A DNA stretch of 64,000 nt from Brachybacterium sillae (GTDB lineage: Bacteria > Actinomycetota > Actinomycetes > Actinomycetales > Dermabacteraceae), in the NCBI RefSeq assembly GCF_025028335.1, contig NZ_JAFEUW010000001.1, positions 2,480,001 through 2,544,000 on the forward strand, written 5' to 3'. How positions within the stretch are numbered: position 1 is the stretch's first letter; every line of letters begins with the position of its first letter. This document shows, in pieces, positions 1 to 10,595 of the stretch. A program made the position numbers and the translations under genes. The notes beneath the pieces are model-generated. The model saw nothing but the letters and a program-made list of their open reading frames with translations. It had not been told where the DNA came from and searched no databases.

Positions 1-411
1 GGCGTCATGGGACAGGCCCAGCCGCGCCAGCTGCCAGCGCATGTTCGCGATGTTCTGCTCGGTGGTGACCCGCGGGTGGGTGCCGGTGGTGATGGCGTAC
101 TGCTCGGCCGGCAGACCGAAGGCGTCGTACCCCATCGTGTACAGGACGTTCTTGCCCAGCATGCGCTGGTGGCGCGCCACCACGTCGGTGGCGATGTACC
201 CCAGGGGATGCCCCACGTGCAGTCCCGCCCCCGAGGGGTACGGGAACATGTCCATGATGAACATCTTCTCGCCCAGCTCCGCGCCGTCGGCGGCGAGCTC
301 ACCCACCGGGTTGGGGGCGGCGAAGGTCTGCTCGTCCTGCCAGCGCTGCTGCCAGCGCAGTTCGATGTCATCGGCCAGCGCGGCCGTGTAGCGGTGCGGG
401 GTCTCGCTCAT
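1..411 (-). CDS. leuS: Leucyl-tRNA synthetase, N-terminal part (runs off the window)
   Basis: Class I aminoacyl-tRNA synthetase that charges tRNA-Leu in the cytoplasm. Only the first 137 codons are present, beginning at the ATG whose first base is 411; the rest lies beyond the left edge. The segment [15 protein letters not shown] (about residues 55-69) contains the HIGH-type ATP-binding signature HVGH, and [12 protein letters not shown] further on is typical of bacterial LeuRS. No frameshift is seen. The gene sits alone on the minus strand, divergent from the small Cys protein at 713. Its 142-nt leader holds a leucine-codon leader peptide and a terminator hairpin (separate entries), so expression probably responds to charged tRNA-Leu. 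The identification is very secure. Confidence 0.97.
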
Positions 412-464
412 CGCTCAGTCGTCCTTCGTGAGTGGGGTGCAGGCCGTATGGCGCCCTGACATGG

Positions 465-488
465 AAAAACCCCCGCACAGGCGAGGGG
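465..488 (-). terminator. Intrinsic terminator in the leuS leader (candidate attenuator)
   Basis: On the minus strand CCCCTCGC (488-481) pairs with GCGGGGG (476-470) around a CTGT loop, with one bulged T, and is followed by TTTTT (469-465). It is the only hairpin with a proper T-run that I found in the window. It lies 54 nt before the leuS ATG, pointing into the gene, so it cannot be the end of an upstream transcript. A competing pairing, GCGGG (506-502) with CTCGC (485-481), could act as antiterminator. Confidence 0.75.
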
Positions 489-526
489 AGCCGCATCGGT
501 GCCCGCTGGGGCCTTCTCCGACGCGG

Positions 527-553
527 CTACGGAAGCAGGAGCACACGCGCCAC
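527..553 (-). CDS. leuS leader peptide MARVLLLP
   Basis: A nine-codon frame starting GTG at 553 and ending TAG at 527-529 encodes MARVLLLP, with three consecutive leucine codons (CTC CTG CTT). It begins 6 nt after a TACACT -10 box, so it would be read from the first base of a leaderless transcript. It lies upstream of the hairpin at 465-488 and leuS. This is the layout of classical ribosome-mediated attenuation: stalling at Leu codons when charged tRNA-Leu is scarce would favour read-through. I recall similar attenuators being predicted for leuS in Streptomyces. Translation is inferred, not shown. Confidence 0.65.
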   Translation of the reverse strand: MARVLLLP

Positions 554-559
554 GGCGCC

Positions 560-565
560 AGTGTA
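560..565 (-). promoter_or_regulatory. -10 box of the leuS leader transcript
   Basis: TACACT on the minus strand ends 6 nt before the GTG of the leader peptide, the spacing of actinobacterial leaderless promoters. The -35 region is weak (GTCGAC about 16 nt upstream). Confidence 0.6.
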
Positions 566-699
566 CGCGGGTGACTGGTCCGTCGACGGTGCGGCCGGGC
601 CGTGGACGACCCGCCGCCCCGGGAGGCTCGGCCACCGGTGTGAGGCACGGGACGCCCCGGATGTGACCCGCGAGGCGGCGAGCGGAGGCTGCGCGGGCG

Positions 700-705
700 T
701 AGCGT
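700..705 (+). promoter_or_regulatory. -10 box of the small Cys protein gene
   Basis: TAGCGT ends 7 nt before the ATG at 713, suggesting a leaderless mRNA. The GGAGG directly beside that ATG is too close to serve as a ribosome binding site. Confidence 0.45.
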
Positions 706-712
706 CGGAGGC

Positions 713-928
713 ATGGACAGCGCGAACCCCACCGGCAACGGACGACACGCCTCGGGGAAGGCGATGCCGAGGTGTCCGTTGCGGCCCGGTGACCCGTGCT
801 CCCTGTGCGTCCCCGGGGCCACTGGCCCCCACGACTGCCAGACTGTGCGTCTGGTGATGGAGGACCCGGATCTGCGGGAGATGCTGCGCGAGAAGCAGGC
901 CGCGTACCGCGCCTCCACGGCGGCCTGA
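713..928 (+). CDS. Small cysteine-containing protein, DUF6767-like
   Basis: A 71-residue protein of unknown function. Its core, CPLRPGDPCSLCVPGATGPH followed by DC, has four cysteines and a histidine and could bind a metal; a short helical tail (EDPDLREMLREKQAAYRA) follows. The pattern matches what I remember of the actinobacterial DUF6767 family. The start could be the ATG at 713 (a -10 box lies 7 nt upstream, implying a leaderless message) or the in-frame ATG at 764, which has GGGGAAGG a few bases upstream; homologues begin close to the CPLRPGDP motif, so 764 is quite possible. It is divergent from leuS and convergent with panD. No signal peptide or membrane segment is visible. Confidence 0.65.
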   Translation: MDSANPTGNGRHASGKAMPRCPLRPGDPCSLCVPGATGPHDCQTVRLVMEDPDLREMLREKQAAYRASTAA

Positions 929-956
929 CCCTGCGTCGGCACTGCGGCGGTCGGGC

Positions 957-1364
957 TCAGCGGGTGGGCAGCTGGTCGGTCGCCCCGGGCACGGGCTGCC
1001 CGGCATCGTGGCCGATCTCCACGATCCGGTTGTTCTCGTCGACGTGCACCACCCGCGGTTGGTGCTGGGCCATCTCCTCCGGAGTGAACATCCCGTAGGC
1101 CATGACGATCACCAGATCGCCCGGGTTCACCAGGTGGGCGGCCGCCCCGTTGATGGAGAGGATGCCACTGCCGCGCTCGCCCTCGATCACGTAGGTCTCC
1201 AGGCGGGAGCCGTTGGAGACGTCCACCACCGCGACCTTCTCGTTCTCGACCAGACCGGCGGCATCCAGCAGGTCGGCGTCGATGGTGACGGAACCGATGT
1301 AGTGCAGGTCCGCCTGGGTCACGGTCGCACGGTGGATCTTCGAGGTCATCAGAGTGCGCATCAT
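957..1364 (-). CDS. panD: Aspartate 1-decarboxylase proenzyme
   Basis: Makes beta-alanine from L-aspartate for pantothenate and CoA synthesis. It is a pyruvoyl enzyme that cleaves itself between Gly24 and Ser25, seen here in [12 protein letters not shown]. Starting at the first of two adjacent ATG codons (first base 1364) puts the reactive serine at position 25 as in the family; the length of 135 residues is normal. [21 protein letters not shown] is the conserved core of the second half. In Mycobacterium panD follows panC directly, whereas here panC is about 28 kb away and this copy is a single gene facing the helicase operon. CAGACT 8 nt before the start is a possible -10 box. Confidence 0.95.
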
Positions 1365-1460
1365 CGCCGTCCAGTCTGGCACGCCGCGGGTGAACGGCGA
1401 AGGCCGAAGCGTGTGGGATGCGCGATGATGGTCGGACTCGTCCCGGAAGGAATCCCCACC

Positions 1461-2918
1461 ATGCCCAAGGCCCGTCGGCGCTCTGCGCACCGCTCCGAGC
1501 GTTTCGAGGAGATGGCGCTGCCCGAGGAGCTTCTCGTCGCCCTCGAGGAGCAGGGGCTGGTGCGCGCCTTCGAGATCCAGGAGGCGATCCTCCCGGACGC
1601 CCTCGCCGGGCGGGACGTCCTGGCGCGGGCCGAGACCGGCTCCGGCAAGACCCTCGCGTTCGCGCTGGCGCTCACGGCCCGCTTCCGGGGTCGCCGCGCG
1701 CATCGCCGCCGCCCCCTGGGCGTGGTGCTGGTGCCCACCCGGGAGCTCGCGGTGCAGGTGGTCGACACCCTGCATCCCTTCGCGCGGGCCGTCGGGATCC
1801 GCGCGCAACTGGTCTCCGGCGGCATGAACATCGACAAGCAGGCCGAGGCCCTCGCCCGCGGCGTCGAGATCATCGTCGCCACCCCCGGCCGCCTGCTGGA
1901 CCTCGCCGAACGAGGCGACCTGATGCTCGACCGGGTCGAGAGCACCGTCATCGACGAGGCCGACCACATGGCCGACCTCGGCTTCCTCCCGGATGTGGCG
2001 ACGATCCTCCAGGCCGTGCCCATGGGCACCCAGAAGATGCTGTTCTCCGCGACCCTCGACGGGAAGGTGGAGGAGATCGTCGACCGGTTCCTCGTGGACC
2101 CGGTCTCCCATGAGACCGCCCCGGTCGCCGCGGCGGTGCGCACCATGCACCACCACGTCCTGGCGATCGCCCCGAGCGCGAAACGGGAGATCACCGCCCG
2201 TCTGGCCGCCCGGCGCGGCCGCACCCTTCTGTTCACCCGCACCCAGCTCGGTGCCGAGCGCGTGGCCCAGGAGCTGGTGGAGGTCGGCGTCGCGGCGGCG
2301 GCCCTCCATGGCGCCAAGCAGCAGGGCCTGCGCACCAATGTCCTCGCCGGGTTCCGGCAGGGCGCCTTCCCGGTGCTGGTCGCGACGGATGTCGCCGCCC
2401 GCGGCCTCCACATCGACGATGTCACCATGGTGGTGCACGTCGACCCCGCCGAGGACGTCAAGGAGTACGTGCACCGCTCCGGGCGCACCGCCCGGGCGGG
2501 TGCTGAGGGCACGGTGGTCACGCTGGCCCTGCCGCATCAGACCGGGGCCACCCGCCGGATCGTCGACGAGGCGGCTGCGGAGGTCGCCTGGGACGAGGCC
2601 CCCGACGCCGACGTCGACGTGATCGCGGCCCTCGGTGGGCGGCGCCCCTCCGGGGAACCGGTGGACGACCCCGCCGCCACCAAGTACAAGGGGGCGCCGC
2701 GCAAGCTCGACCTCTCCCGGGCCGACGGTGCCAATGCGCGTCGGGCCGCGGAGCGACGCCTCAACGAGGAACTGCGCGCCGGCTGGGACGAGGGCGACGC
2801 GACCGCGACGCCCCGACGGGGGGCCGGCCGCGGACGCGGTCGACCCGCGCGCGGCTCCGGCGGATCGACTCGACGCGCGGGTCACGGCCCGCGACGACGT
2901 GGAAAGGGGACACGATGA
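1461..2918 (+). CDS. DEAD-box ATP-dependent RNA helicase
   Basis: Superfamily 2 RNA helicase of 485 residues, probably acting in ribosome assembly or mRNA unwinding. Visible motifs in order are Walker A AETGSGKT (57-64), PTRELAVQ (Ia), TPGRLLDL (Ib), VIDEADHM (the DEAD box, near 165), LFSATL (III), ARGLHIDD and [10 protein letters not shown] (VI). The C-terminus is a basic Arg/Gly-rich tail ([13 protein letters not shown]), a common RNA-binding extension. GGAAGGA lies 9 nt before the ATG. Its stop overlaps the sdaA start (ATGA), so the two are translationally coupled at the head of a five-gene operon. It resembles the RhlE/DbpA group, but I cannot assign a subfamily. Confidence 0.93.
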
Positions 2919-4309
2919 GCGTCAGCCTCTTCGACATGTTCAAGATCGGCATCGGGCCGTCGAGCTCCCACACCGTGGGGCCCATGCGCGCGGCGGCGCA
3001 GTTCGCCCGCGAAGCCCTCGCCGATCCCGAGATCGGGCCGCGGATCGCCGACGTCGCCGTGCACCTGTACGGCAGCCTCGCCGCGACCGGGGAGGGCCAC
3101 GGGACCCTCTCCGCTGTGGTCATGGGGCTCGAAGGTGCCGACCCCGAGACCGTCGACCCGGTGGCCGGGCGCGAGCGCGTGGCCCGGATCGAGAAGGAGG
3201 GCGGCCTGATGCTCGATGGCCGCCTGCCCGTCTCCCTACGTCCCTCCACGATCGTGCTGCATCCGCTCACGTTCCTGCCGCAGCACTCCAACGGCATGAC
3301 CTTCCTGGCCCTCGACGCCGACGGCCAGGAGATCCTGCGCCGCCCGATGTTCTCCGTCGGCGGTGGCTTCGTGGTCGACGAGGCCGACATGGACCAGCGC
3401 CTCGCCGACGTCGTCGCCGAGGAGAGCGACACAGCGCACTTCACCACCGCCGCCGGCCTCCTGCAGCTGTGCGAGGAGGAGGGCATCTCCATCTCCGAGG
3501 CGATGCTGCGTCGCGAACGGCAGTGGCGCACCGATGAGGAGATCCGTGAGGGTGCCCTGCGCATCTGGGACACCATGCGCGACTGCATCCGCCGCGGCCA
3601 GGAGACCTCCGGCATCCTGCCCGGAGGATTGGACGTGCGGCGTCGTGCCGCCTCCTGGCGGGAATCCCTCGAGGTCGAGGACCCGCACCGCAACCCCCTG
3701 TACGCCTTCGAATGGGTCTCCCTCGCGGCCCTCGCCGTGAACGAGGAGAACGCCGCCGGTGGGCGCGTGGTCACCGCCCCCACCAACGGGGCGGCGGGCA
3801 TCATCCCCGCGGTGCTCGACTACGCCACCACCTACCTGCACGAGGCCGACGCCGACGAGGTCGCCGTCCGCTTCCTCCTCACCGCCGCCGCCATCGGCTC
3901 CCTGTACAAGGAGAATGCGTCGATCTCCGGGGCGGAGGTCGGGTGCCAGGGCGAGGTCGGGTCCGCGTGCTCCATGGCGGCGGCTGGCCTGGCGGAGGTG
4001 CTCGGGGCCAAGCCCCGGCAGGTGGAGAACGCCGCCGAGATCGCGATGGAGCACAACCTCGGGCTCACCTGCGACCCCGTCGGCGGCCTGGTGCAGGTCC
4101 CCTGCATCGAGCGCAACGCCATGGCCGCCGTCAAGGCGATCACCGCCGCCCGCTTCGCCCTGCGCGGCACCGGAGAGCACTTCGTCTCCCTCGACACCGT
4201 CATCGAGACCATGCGACAGACCGGCAAGGACATGAGCGAGCGCTACAAGGAGACGGCCATGGGCGGTCTCGCGATCACCGCTGTGCCCGTCTCCCAGATC
4301 GAGTGCTGA
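2915..4309 (+). CDS. sdaA: L-serine ammonia-lyase (serine deaminase), single-chain
   Basis: Converts L-serine to pyruvate and ammonia with an oxygen-labile [4Fe-4S] cluster. The 464 residues cover both the beta domain (N-terminal [16 protein letters not shown], residues 11-26) and the alpha domain with [20 protein letters not shown] and [12 protein letters not shown], whose cysteines hold the cluster. This is the fused one-chain form of the family. The ATG overlaps the helicase stop by four bases, and the first of three HTH paralogues begins 2 nt after its own stop, so all five genes look like one transcription and translation unit. Serine-derived pyruvate connects it with the lactate and malate genes elsewhere in the window. 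Confidence 0.96.
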
Positions 4310-4311
4310 GG

Positions 4312-5268
4312 ATGACCCCCGGGTCTGGACAGCTGCCGCAGGGCAGCTTCGCCGAACGCCTCTCCGCCGCCCTCGCCGGACAGCCCCTGGGGCTGCAGCG
4401 GATCTCGCAGCGCCTGCGGGAGATGGGCATCTCCTGTTCGCCCTCGACCCTGAGCCGCTGGTCGAACGGGCGCACCGCTCCCCGGCGCAGCCAGGCCCGG
4501 CGGGCGGTGGCCGCCCTCGAGGCCCTGCTGAACGTCCCCCAGGGGTACCTCACCTCCGCCGCCTTCGGCGAGGCCACGGAACCCGCCTGGCACGGCGATG
4601 ATGAGGAGAAGCGCCAGGCGGACCTGCGCGCCGCACTGCACCGGCAGGACGCCGACGACTTCGGGATCGATCTGGACGCCGCCGACGCCGAGACGATTTT
4701 CCTCCACGAGACGCTCGAGATCGATGCCCAGCGACGGGGTCGCAGCATTCGCGTCCGGCGCATCCTGCGCGCCCTCGACCGCCCGGTGGAACGTTTCCTC
4801 GCCGGCCACTCGGGGGTGACCGGACCCGACGGTGAACGGCTCCTGCGCGAGCTGGAACCCGGGCCGGGCTCCCGGCTGGGGCGGGTGCGCGAGCACCCGG
4901 AGGTCGGCATGACCGTCGCGGAGATCATCCTGGAACGCCCCCTCGCACCCGGGGAGGTCGGGATCGTCGAATACACGGTCATCCCGCAGGGCGGGGTCGA
5001 GGAGTACACCACCGGCTGGCACGTCTGCGACGTGGTGCACCGGCTTCCCGTCGCGGAGATGGTGCTGGAGATCATCTTCCACCCGGAGGCGCTGCCGACC
5101 GGGCTGCGCGGTGCCGTGACCCGCACCATCGGCGGTGCGGGGCGGCGTGGACGCACGCTCCGCCACGACCTGCAGCTCCTCGGGTCCAGTGCGATCGTGT
5201 CCGGTCGCGACATCGAACGCGGCGGTGTGCGCATCGAATGGACCTGGGACGAGGAGCCGACGGCGTGA
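4312..5268 (+). CDS. HTH protein with conserved C-terminal domain, tandem paralogue 1
   Basis: Unrecognised 318-residue protein. The N-terminus reads like an XRE-type helix-turn-helix: FAERLSAALAG, then LQRISQRLREMGIS and a recognition-like SPSTLSRWSNGRTAPRRS (about residues 44-61). A charged linker leads to a beta-strand-rich C-terminal domain containing LERPLAPGEVGIVEY and ending in VRIEWTWDEE. The two following genes have the same plan (LPRPLTEGE, LPRPLSAGE and a terminal W-rich strand), so the three are paralogues by tandem duplication. It starts 2 nt after sdaA and its stop overlaps the next start (GTGA). No signal peptide, membrane segment or enzyme motif is visible. It is probably a DNA-binding regulator whose C-terminal domain senses something unknown. 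Confidence 0.8.
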   Translation: MTPGSGQLPQGSFAERLSAALAGQPLGLQRISQRLREMGISCSPSTLSRWSNGRTAPRRSQARRAVAALEALLNVPQGYLTSAAFGEATEPAWHGDDEEKRQADLRAALHRQDADDFGIDLDAADAETIFLHETLEIDAQRRGRSIRVRRILRALDRPVERFLAGHSGVTGPDGERLLRELEPGPGSRLGRVREHPEVGMTVAEIILERPLAPGEVGIVEYTVIPQGGVEEYTTGWHVCDVVHRLPVAEMVLEIIFHPEALPTGLRGAVTRTIGGAGRRGRTLRHDLQLLGSSAIVSGRDIERGGVRIEWTWDEEPTA

Positions 5269-6164
5269 CCCGCCCGGCGCCGGACAGCTTCGCCGTCGTA
5301 CTGCGCCGAGCCCTCCAGGAGCGCGGACTCGGCGTCGCCGAGGCCGCCACGAGCGCGATGCGCCGCGGTGTGGCGCTGACGCCCGCGACGATCACCCATT
5401 GGTGCGAGGGGGACATCGTCCCGGATCCCCGTGAGGATCGGGAGCTCCTCGACGCCCTGGAGGAGGTCCTGCGTCTGGACCGCGGTCGCCTGTCGGCCGC
5501 CGCGCGAGCCGACACCGGCGTCGCCCCCCGCCGGTGGACCCGACCGGGAGAGTATGGCCCGGAACTGCGCGACGTCCTGCGGCAGTGGGCGTTCCCCGTC
5601 GACGACGGGCTGGAACGCCGCGTCGTGGTGGTGACCCGTTTCGCGGAGGAAATCGGCCCTGTGCGCACCCGCTTCGAGGTGGTGGTGGAGGCCACCCGCA
5701 GCGGTGCCGACCGCTTCGTGACTGTGTTCGACACCTCTGATGAGACCGACAGCGAGCCCGCGCGGGTCCAGGCCATCCGCAACTGCCGACGGGGCCGGTC
5801 CGTCACCACCTCGCAGTCGCAGACGCTCGTCGAGGTGATCCTGCCCCGCCCCCTCACGGAGGGGGAGACCGCGACCGTCACCTACGACTGGCTCTTCGAC
5901 ACCGCTCGCGTCCCCCCGAGCGCCCTGGCGATCTGGAGTCTGCAGCGCCTCAGTGCGCTGGCCGTCGTGGTCCGGTTCCCGGACCCCGACCGTTCCGTGT
6001 GGATGCGCACCGCCCTCACGTCGCTCGGACGTGACGGCTCCGAGACCCGCACGGGGCAGCCCTACGCTCGCACCCGCGCCGGGGGTGTCGGAGCTGTGCT
6101 GGTCGATGCCGAGGCGGGCAGCGTCGAGGTGGTCTGGGAGGCCGAGCCGGGGGATCGGGCATGA
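5265..6164 (+). CDS. HTH protein with conserved C-terminal domain, tandem paralogue 2
   Basis: Middle member of the three-paralogue set, 299 residues from a GTG whose last two bases are shared with the previous stop codon. The N-terminal part FAVVLRRALQERGLGVAEAA, then TPATITHWCEGDIVPDPRED, aligns with the HTH of its neighbours, but the Arg-rich stretch after the tryptophan is acidic here, so DNA contact may differ or be lost. The C-terminal domain keeps VEVILPRPLTEGETATVTY, a W/L/VRFP block (residues near 230-250) and a final VEVVWEAE. Its stop overlaps the ATG of paralogue 3 (ATGA). Divergence between the copies is high, so the duplications are old and each copy is probably maintained. Confidence 0.8.
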   Translation: MTRPAPDSFAVVLRRALQERGLGVAEAATSAMRRGVALTPATITHWCEGDIVPDPREDRELLDALEEVLRLDRGRLSAAARADTGVAPRRWTRPGEYGPELRDVLRQWAFPVDDGLERRVVVVTRFAEEIGPVRTRFEVVVEATRSGADRFVTVFDTSDETDSEPARVQAIRNCRRGRSVTTSQSQTLVEVILPRPLTEGETATVTYDWLFDTARVPPSALAIWSLQRLSALAVVVRFPDPDRSVWMRTALTSLGRDGSETRTGQPYARTRAGGVGAVLVDAEAGSVEVVWEAEPGDRA

Positions 6165-7150
6165 GCGGAGCGGAGGAGTCCACCGGAGGTCATGCCGCCA
6201 CCGGGCCGGAGGGCAACCCCGCGGCAGCGACCGGAGCATCCGAGGAGGTCGACTTCGCCCAGGTGCTGCGGACCGCGCTGCAGCGCAGCCCCCTGTCGTT
6301 GGCGAGCCTGTCCACCGCTTTGTCGGTGCAGGGCTCGCCGGTCACCCCCGCCACGCTCAGCTACTGGTCGCAGGGGCGCTCCCGTCCTCAGCGCCGCTCC
6401 TCCGTCGCCGTGGTGCAGAACCTCGAATCCCTGCTGGAGCTGGAACCGGGTGAGCTGCTGTCCTGTTCCGGGCTGGACGTCGGAACCACGTCCGGGCCGC
6501 CCCCGCAGATCCCCGACCGCTACGCCGCGGTGCTGCGCCGGGCCCATGAGGAATGGGGGATCCCCTGGGACGAGGGCCTCAGCCGGCGACTCGTCACCGC
6601 CCGGTATGACGTGCGGCCCGGCCAGCCCCTGCGCTGTGTCTACGAGGTGGTCGCGGAGGCCACCATCGACGGAGCCTCCCGCTACCTCCTGCTGCTCAAC
6701 CCCCGCCTCTACGGGCTGGACGGGCCCGCCGTCGTGGAGGGTCTGACCGGATGCCGGACGGGCCGGGTCGGATATCTCCCCGGTGGGGCGTCCATGCACG
6801 AGCTCGAACTGCCGCGTCCGCTGTCCGCGGGGGAGGTGGCGATCCTGCGCTTCGAGGTCCAGACCCCAGGGCGCAGCGACCTCCGAGAGGTGACGCGCTT
6901 CGGCGCCTGGTCGATCCATCCCACGGACCTGCTCGCCTGTGCAGTGCGCTTCCCCCGCGGGCATCGCCCCCGGTGGTATCGCCGGTCCATCCTCCGCCTG
7001 GAGGCCGACGGGGAGTTCGTCACGCAGGACGGACCGGTGCTGCCGGTGCGGGGGCGGGACATCGCCGCGGTCGCCAGCGACGTCGGGGTGGGGCAGGTCT
7101 GGGTGGAGTGGTCCGACGACCGGGAGAGCCTGCGTCCCTCGGAGCAGTGA
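6161..7150 (+). CDS. HTH protein with conserved C-terminal domain, tandem paralogue 3
   Basis: Last gene of the helicase-sdaA operon, 329 residues. After a disordered Ala/Gly/Thr-rich start (1-28) comes the HTH-like region FAQVLRTALQRSPLSLASLS, then TPATLSYWSQGRSRPQRRSS. The C-terminal domain has ELELPRPLSAGEVAILRFE, a W/AVRFP block and a closing VWVEWSDD, each lining up with paralogues 1 and 2. It overlaps paralogue 2 by four bases, and about 90 nt separate it from acs. I know of no assigned function. A regulator of the serine deaminase operon, or a multi-subunit assembly of the three proteins, are both possible and untested. Confidence 0.8.
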   Translation: MSGAEESTGGHAATGPEGNPAAATGASEEVDFAQVLRTALQRSPLSLASLSTALSVQGSPVTPATLSYWSQGRSRPQRRSSVAVVQNLESLLELEPGELLSCSGLDVGTTSGPPPQIPDRYAAVLRRAHEEWGIPWDEGLSRRLVTARYDVRPGQPLRCVYEVVAEATIDGASRYLLLLNPRLYGLDGPAVVEGLTGCRTGRVGYLPGGASMHELELPRPLSAGEVAILRFEVQTPGRSDLREVTRFGAWSIHPTDLLACAVRFPRGHRPRWYRRSILRLEADGEFVTQDGPVLPVRGRDIAAVASDVGVGQVWVEWSDDRESLRPSEQ

Positions 7151-7240
7151 CCCGGCCCCGATCACGCACGGCACGGCGCATGCGGGTGCGCTACGGTGAT
7201 CAGCACCACATATCGTGACTCGCACCATCCAGGAGACCTG

Positions 7241-9232
<1,992 letters not shown>

Positions 9233-9328
9233 CCGGGCGGGGGAGCCGGTCGCCGAGAGGCGGCTGAGCGCTTCACGGTGGCCGGACGCCCGTCGCGCAC
9301 CGGCGATGCGCTCGCCCGTCCGGCCGCA

Positions 9329-9360
9329 CGGCCCGGTCCCGGGACTCCGGGACCGGGCCG
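9329..9360 (+). terminator. Perfect 14-bp hairpin after acs
   Basis: CGGCCCGGTCCCGG, loop GACT, then its exact complement. There is no T-run, as is usual for terminators in such GC-rich genomes. It separates acs from the LacI-type regulator. Confidence 0.7.
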
Positions 9361-9398
9361 ACGTCTCTCCACTGCGTGTGATGCGGTTCAATGGAGGT

Positions 9399-10595
9399 AT
9401 GAGCAACGGAGCGAGCAGCAGCGGCGGCGAGCGCATCGACCCCACTGCCGACACCACCCACGGCCCGGCCCCCGACGCGGGGGAGACCGGACAGATCATC
9501 GAGCAGGGCGACGAGGTCGAGAAGTCGCTGGCGGCCGAGAGCGGGCCGGCCCGCGGCACCCTGCGTGATGTCGCCGACAGTCTCGGGATCTCCAGCGCCG
9601 TGGCGCTGCGTGCGCTGCGTGGGGCAGAGGACATCCGCCCCAAGCTCCGCGAGCGGGTCGAGGAGGCCGCCGACCGGTTGGGTTTCCCCCGCGACGAGGT
9701 CGTCAGCGAGGGTGACCACCGCGGTGTCGTCGCGGTGCTCGTGAACACCATGCGCAACACCTGGATCTCCGACCTGGTGCGCGCCATCCGGATCGAGCTG
9801 ACCGCCACCGGTCGCTCCGCCGTCGTGGTCCCCACCCGGCGCCGCGTCCCGGAGTACCCGGTCGCCGCCGACACCGAGGCCATCGAGTCGTTGGTGAACC
9901 TCGGTGTCGACGGTTTCCTCATGATCTCCGACCTCGCCGACATGGACAGTGTGCTGGAGGCGACCAAGGGCCGCCCCTTCGTCGGCATCGGCTGTTCCCG
10001 TGAGTACGCGGGGCGGATCGACACCGTGCGCATCGACGACGAGATCGGCCAGGGCCTGCTGGTCGACCATCTGGTGTCCCTCGGGCATCGTGACATCGCG
10101 CACGTCGGCGGCGTGGGCGCGGCCGTGAGCCGGGAGCGCGCCGACGCCTTCCGTGCTGCCATGGAACGCCACGGTCTGGCCGACCGCGCCCGTGTGGAGC
10201 CCGGCGACTTCACCGAGCAGGTGGGGCACACCGCCGGGTCGATGCTGCTGCGCGGGAGTGTCATCCCCACCGCGGTGATCTGCACCAACGATGTCTCCGC
10301 CCTGGGTGTGCTGGCGGCCGCCCGCGAGGCCTCCTTCGACGTGCCCAGCCAGCTGGCGGTGGCCGGGTACGGCAACACCTCTCTCGGGTCCACCGGGGTG
10401 GTGGAGCTGACCAGCGTCGATCCCAATTCCGACCGTCTGGGCGCCCTGGCCGCGCAGTTCCTCGTCGATCGCGTCGGCGGTGACGACTCGCCGGCGCGGG
10501 ACGTCGCGATCGCGCCGAGCCTGGTGGTGCGGCGTTCCACCTCCGCCGGTCCCCGTGCGGAGGCACCGCGCCGCAAGCGCATCAGCATCGAGTGA
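9399..10595 (+). CDS. LacI-family transcriptional regulator with long N-terminal extension
   Basis: Sugar-type repressor of 398 residues. The LacI HTH, TLRDVADSLGISSAVALRAL, sits at residues 54-73 instead of the extreme N-terminus, because about 50 acidic, disordered residues precede it. The ligand-binding domain follows: GVVAVLVNTMRNTWISDLVR, GVDGFLMISD, HLVSLGHRDIAHVGG, AVICTNDVSALGVLAA and the final AVAGYGNTSLG block. GGAGG lies just upstream of the ATG at 9399; no internal start close to the HTH is better supported. No transporter or sugar gene is adjacent, so the target is unknown. The MsmK-type ATPase gene at 15234 is a candidate partner only by theme. Confidence 0.92.
   Translation: MSNGASSSGGERIDPTADTTHGPAPDAGETGQIIEQGDEVEKSLAAESGPARGTLRDVADSLGISSAVALRALRGAEDIRPKLRERVEEAADRLGFPRDEVVSEGDHRGVVAVLVNTMRNTWISDLVRAIRIELTATGRSAVVVPTRRRVPEYPVAADTEAIESLVNLGVDGFLMISDLADMDSVLEATKGRPFVGIGCSREYAGRIDTVRIDDEIGQGLLVDHLVSLGHRDIAHVGGVGAAVSRERADAFRAAMERHGLADRARVEPGDFTEQVGHTAGSMLLRGSVIPTAVICTNDVSALGVLAAAREASFDVPSQLAVAGYGNTSLGSTGVVELTSVDPNSDRLGALAAQFLVDRVGGDDSPARDVAIAPSLVVRRSTSAGPRAEAPRRKRISIE

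Follow-up and report, generated by a model that had tools for sequence, protein, structure and literature searches.

What do three overlapping genes encoding helix-turn-helix (HTH) proteins do directly behind the serine deaminase gene of Brachybacterium sillae, and does that position reveal their function? The genes, here P1, P2 and P3, lie within a 64,000-nt stretch of DNA, referred to in its entirety as the window. The initial annotation saw in them a maintained three-subunit regulator or sensor set coupled to serine deaminase. The overlaps, reading frames and motifs of P1 through P3 match its description, including the tight overlaps within the array and the 2-nt gap that separates the array from sdaA. 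The features considered, all on the forward strand, are these (types A and B are defined below):

1461..2918, + strand: DEAD-box helicase gene (named by eye; start taken at the methionine of MPKARRRS), with an ATGA overlap with sdaA
2915..4309, + strand: sdaA, serine dehydratase (Pfam domains SDH_beta and SDH_alpha), the upstream neighbor
4312..5268, + strand: P1, 318 aa, type A, with an XRE-like HTH and a predicted beta-sandwich like the M1 N-domain
4348..4566, + strand: HTH region of P1, helices of residues 13-85 (structure model)
4687..5247, + strand: predicted C-terminal beta-sandwich of P1, strands of residues 126-312 (structure model)
5265..6164, + strand: P2, 299 aa from a GTG start, type B with an acidic HTH; this is the extra copy
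5289..5516, + strand: HTH region of P2, helices of residues 9-84, charge facing DNA lost
5610..6143, + strand: predicted C-terminal beta-sandwich of P2, strands of residues 116-293
6161..7150, + strand: P3, type B member, 329 aa, basic HTH (assigned from sequence)
7241..9232, + strand: acs-like acyl-CoA synthetase gene (named by eye), bounding the variable sdaA-acs interval downstream

P1, P2 and P3 are paralogues of one another by sequence homology, but curated families hardly recognize them. Against a cut-off of 27 bits, the Pfam model PF13560 (HTH_31) scored 18.7 with P1 and 17.0 with P3, and Pfam gave no match to P2; a scan of NCBIfam gave no match above cut-off to any of the three, and a scan of PHROGs gave repressor-like HTH matches and nothing else. 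Seven relatives scanned against Pfam and eight against NCBIfam were likewise without a family above cut-off. The initial annotation considered the set to fall outside the families it knew. Profile searches placed the C-terminal domain in no known effector family, and the scans of the three collections gave no curated family for it. A literature search, in which coverage of subscription journals was thin, found no paper on the family.

The HTH resembles that of the XRE/HTH_31 class and of the phage P22 c2 repressor, from which the family differs in scoring below the Pfam cut-off and in having a C-terminal domain of another kind. Four HTH residues (W50, P57, E70 and L73 in P1 numbering) are invariant across 33 aligned rows, as are the equivalent columns across 60 rows. 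Structure models of P1 and P2, made from overlapping family alignments, show the helical fold of lambda/P22-type repressors in the HTH region and predict a C-terminal domain that is all beta, with 13 strands in each protein. The top fold matches are Ost1 (ribophorin I) and the N-terminal beta-sandwich domains of M1 aminopeptidases, a likeness of predicted fold that shows no function. Identity to these matches is only 7-13%, with no detectable sequence relation, and the C-terminal domain differs from them as well in lacking a catalytic domain and in being joined to an HTH. No M1 model in Pfam matched by sequence and no M1 chain among PDB sequences (best E 0.051, unrelated), and identification through PDB sequences was dropped, since it yielded nothing meaningful. 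The two-part plan ascribed to all three proteins is borne out by their homology together with the two models. The C-terminal domain is an exchangeable module, because it is joined to other N-termini in several actinobacterial genera (10 loci, L149-L158); proteins of about 290-350 aa from six genomes (f24 g77) are an example. P1, P2 and P3 belong to an undescribed, uncurated family of actinobacterial regulators that probably bind DNA.

A member of the family is present in 28 of the 47 genomes of the window's taxonomic family. Counts from the class and the phylum are lower bounds, because only 5 to 11 candidates per genome were scored: at least 56 of 296 genomes and 21 of 114 genera in a class sample at E 1e-5 (7 candidates), at least 82 of 394 genomes and 26 of 137 genera in a second, overlapping class sample at E 1e-10 (5 candidates), and at least 10 of 198 genomes in the phylum sample (11 candidates), where the two from outside the class are partial, one an HTH part and the other a C-domain part. 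Protein searches that took P1 or A2 as query found at least 5 and at least 6 proteins, respectively, the query included; a query of the Nocardioides type gave 288 matches, and whole-genome searches likewise point to a large family, whose named holders include Lentzea, Streptomyces, Nocardioides and Knoellia. Single copies of the Streptomyces-like kind sit at one constant position, with uvrC on one side and uvrA on the other, in all nine such loci read (L132-L138, L161 and L169), some of which also have a gene of peptidase class C70 in between. The available part of one paper concerns the uvrC-whiA cluster of Streptomyces, with SCO1953 (PMC4255298), and in the available part of another SCO1957 is treated as a phosphofructokinase (PMC8981147). 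The family member of Streptomyces coelicolor would lie in the stretch from uvrC (SCO1953) to this SCO1957 kinase gene.

The proposed coupling to serine deaminase does not survive comparison as a constant link. All 47 genomes of the taxonomic family possess sdaA, and the array adjoins it in six (the window genome, G000, and G005, G007, G011, G013 and G034). Between sdaA and the conserved domain there are 14 nt in the window, compared with 163, 195, 293, 339 and 374 nt in the five other genomes. Among 20 relatives examined that lack the array, 18 have other genes in the interval between sdaA and acs, and in two (L101 and L102) a codon-usage gene caller found none behind sdaA; acs lay within the fetched stretch in 18 of the 20, at 169-4463 nt from sdaA. 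Judged by eye, the interval genes include old-yellow-enzyme, dehydrogenase, AMP-ligase and glyoxalase-like genes. Gene content of the interval (4310-7240 in the window, and its counterpart in relatives) thus varies within the genus. In two other genomes the arrays (L037 and L038) are sited away from sdaA, no more than about 4 kb from a gene that by eye is glutamate-dehydrogenase-like. The link to sdaA is local to a handful of related species.

What is constant is the pairing. Nine tandem arrays occur in eight genomes (that of the window, G005, G007 with two, G011, G013, G034, G035 and G043), and in all nine one kind of gene (A) comes first with another (B) behind it; only the window has the order A-B-B. 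In a tree of 70 rows, the 9 rows of A and the 10 of B form separate clades, each supported at 100/99, with long B branches. Neither clade is the closest to the remaining singles of the taxonomic family. The placement of both P2 and P3 within the B clade is firm. The best tree joins them as sisters (95/82), yet trees that group P3 (p = 0.207) or, alternatively, P2 (p = 0.465) with the other five B genes linked to sdaA are not rejected by the AU test, so the two B forms may be older in origin. Rather than the three-subunit set of the initial annotation, then, selection keeps one A and one B, and the window carries an extra B. The loss of basic residues from the HTH of the second paralogue was correctly noted: the net charge of that segment is −7 in P2, as against +5 in P1, +3 in P3 and a range of −2 to +5 in the 59 rows other than P2. 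Most simply, P2 would be a partner without DNA contact of its own.

To ask what accompanies the family elsewhere, 80 loci were fetched and 65 used, leaving out the five sdaA arrays and 10 loci with the C-terminal domain only, and loci sharing neighbors were merged into 37 independent clusters, with genes called by my own codon-usage caller. An immediate neighbor carries a peptidase motif of class S8, S1, S9 or C70 in 12 of the 37 clusters, and 15 once M4 is included, counts to be read knowing that the motif set was picked after the neighbors had been read by eye, that the M4 motif was added after the first count, and that uvrA near the L132 cluster, a loose match to the S9 motif and not a peptidase, was removed by name. 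Weighted by cluster, motif-bearing genes number 14.1 among the 78 immediate and intervening neighbors, then fall to 2.3 among 145 genes at ranks 2-3 and to 0.5 among 206.6 from rank 4 outward (p = 5.6e-9). The control set, 40 HTH_31 loci drawn from these genomes, has such motifs in 1 of 79 immediate genes (p = 2.6e-4) and in 2 of 322 others, so that a single control locus has a peptidase neighbor.

Of 20 neighbor proteins submitted to Pfam, 18 match peptidase or protease-prodomain models from five unrelated catalytic classes: S8 (five), S1 (five, by the Trypsin model and/or the alpha-lytic prodomain), M4 (three), S9 (three) and C70 (two). The neighbor at L140, with a trypsin-like motif, gave P-domain and fn3 only, and one partner gene had no match. 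Many of the peptidase neighbors are secreted in form. Their orientation in 19 rows is mixed (8 divergent, 8 on the same strand, 3 convergent), and the promoters thus follow no common layout. By these motifs 22 clusters have no peptidase beside the family gene, and the window array, flanked by sdaA and acs, adjoins none. Because the neighbors come from five unrelated peptidase classes, the gene contexts suggest that the family acts in the use of proteins and peptides.

Some of these loci merit separate description. At L140, L145 and L218, in three unrelated families, a gene that encodes a secreted peptidase or bears a motif has a family member on either side. Most singles of the Brachybacterium type have two S9 genes as neighbors, and some are near an operon that by eye resembles one for peptide transport. 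The window genome has a fourth copy of this single type, outside the window (G000:C1:1263654-1264548; L052 6655-7552), whose HTH and C-domain parts are in different reading frames; it adjoins an intact S9 oligopeptidase-like gene across a divergent intergenic stretch much shorter than that of its relatives. Two further single-type copies (G003:C1:2182288-2183183 and G027:C1:459170-460062) are broken near the junction of HTH and C-terminal domain, and assembly errors are likely in G027, because its sdaA is split as well. At seven orthologous S9-linked loci (L044-L049 and L051) a conserved AT-rich element with a consensus near ACATACCTGTAAAA lies in the stretch separating the family gene from the S9 gene, close to the former, and is a candidate promoter or operator. 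It has no match in the window with up to three mismatches, and an operator shared with the window array was discarded on that account. A search for sigma-70-like promoters in positions 1-10000 of the window found none, which says little for a high-GC actinobacterium.

The reading I prefer, though tentatively, is that these are peptidase-linked regulators, forming an A-B heteromer in the genus of the window, where P2 is a modulating partner. The family would combine an XRE/P22-c2-like HTH with a C-terminal beta-sandwich shaped like the N-domain of M1 aminopeptidases; the sandwich would probably sense a peptide-related signal, and the protein would probably control genes for extracellular or cytoplasmic peptidases and the use of peptides. 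In the genus of the window, an A-B pair would have formed in tandem and come to lie among genes of amino-acid catabolism (adjoining sdaA in six genomes), and this branch may have shifted to amino-acid catabolism. A and B most likely act together as a heteromer. In the window, B is present twice, P1 and P3 retaining basic HTH segments and the acidic P2 being most likely a modulating partner that makes no DNA contact of its own. A bolder version, possible but rather doubtful, sees a widespread class of actinobacterial regulators whose sensor descends from the substrate-reading N-domain of M1 enzymes or shares its shape; these would report proteolysis and control adjacent, unrelated peptidases, with an obligate A-B heteromer in the Brachybacterium group and the second B of the window a subunit dead for DNA binding.

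It is unlikely, if worth serious consideration, that the proteins regulate something else, such as nutrient or developmental state, and that peptidases are merely co-resident among stationary-phase and secretion-related genes. The many clusters with no peptidase neighbor fit such a view, as does the fixed place of the Streptomyces-like singles between uvrC and uvrA, where the C70 gene is only sometimes found. However, mere co-residence would have to account for five unrelated peptidase classes at rank 1, the sharp drop at ranks 2-3, the near absence beyond, and a peptidase neighbor at just one of the 40 control loci. The proposal of the initial annotation, a sensor or regulator of three maintained subunits that is linked to serine deaminase, is considerably less probable: only one of nine arrays has three genes, and neither adjacency to sdaA, in six of 47 genomes that all have it, nor the spacing is conserved, despite the tight packing in the window, the six linked arrays and the theme of amino-acid deamination extended by the glutamate-dehydrogenase-like gene near L037 and L038.

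Equally improbable are proteins that are not transcription factors at all but HTH-bearing peptidase inhibitors, chaperones or binding partners. The basic surface has gone from the HTH of P2, and three peptidase neighbors are convergent, but the HTH is conserved at its four invariant residues, P1 and P3 are still basic, and the neighboring peptidases are often secreted in form, whereas no signal peptide was seen by eye in P1-P3. Mobile or defense-type genes filling a variable spot have scarcely any probability; the interval between sdaA and acs does differ among relatives, but within groups the single-copy members keep their synteny, the window array was seen to have no mobile genes next to it, and a defense function was set aside when PADLOC gave weak, HTH-level matches to RmrA (best E 0.0012).

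Among known systems, the peptidase-linked regulator proposed here most resembles the RRNPP proteins, which join an XRE-type HTH to a C-terminal sensor made of helical TPR repeats. One of them, NprR of Bacillus, is encoded near a secreted M4 protease that it controls. Domain plan and adjoining protease gene are thus analogous, but the C-terminal domain of P1 and P2 is predicted to be all beta, with no TPR fold, and since the sensor here is predicted to be beta, NprR can be compared as something that may work alike, not as the same protein. The XRE-DUF397 pairs of Streptomyces, so far as the available part of their description goes (PMC10364602), are also paired genes with an XRE regulator, but the DUF397 partners are small and of another kind, while A and B are both HTH proteins.

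Actinobacteria secrete many proteases, with little known of what turns on their individual protease genes. The regulator reading is a well-defined hypothesis, which will become a mechanism only once DNA binding and a ligand are shown. An uncurated but recognizable sensor domain, encoded beside S8, S1, S9, C70 and M4 genes, would offer a direct handle on the control of proteases, and the A-B arrays, with the charge-reversed extra copy in the window, would provide a compact case of paralogue pairs growing interdependent.
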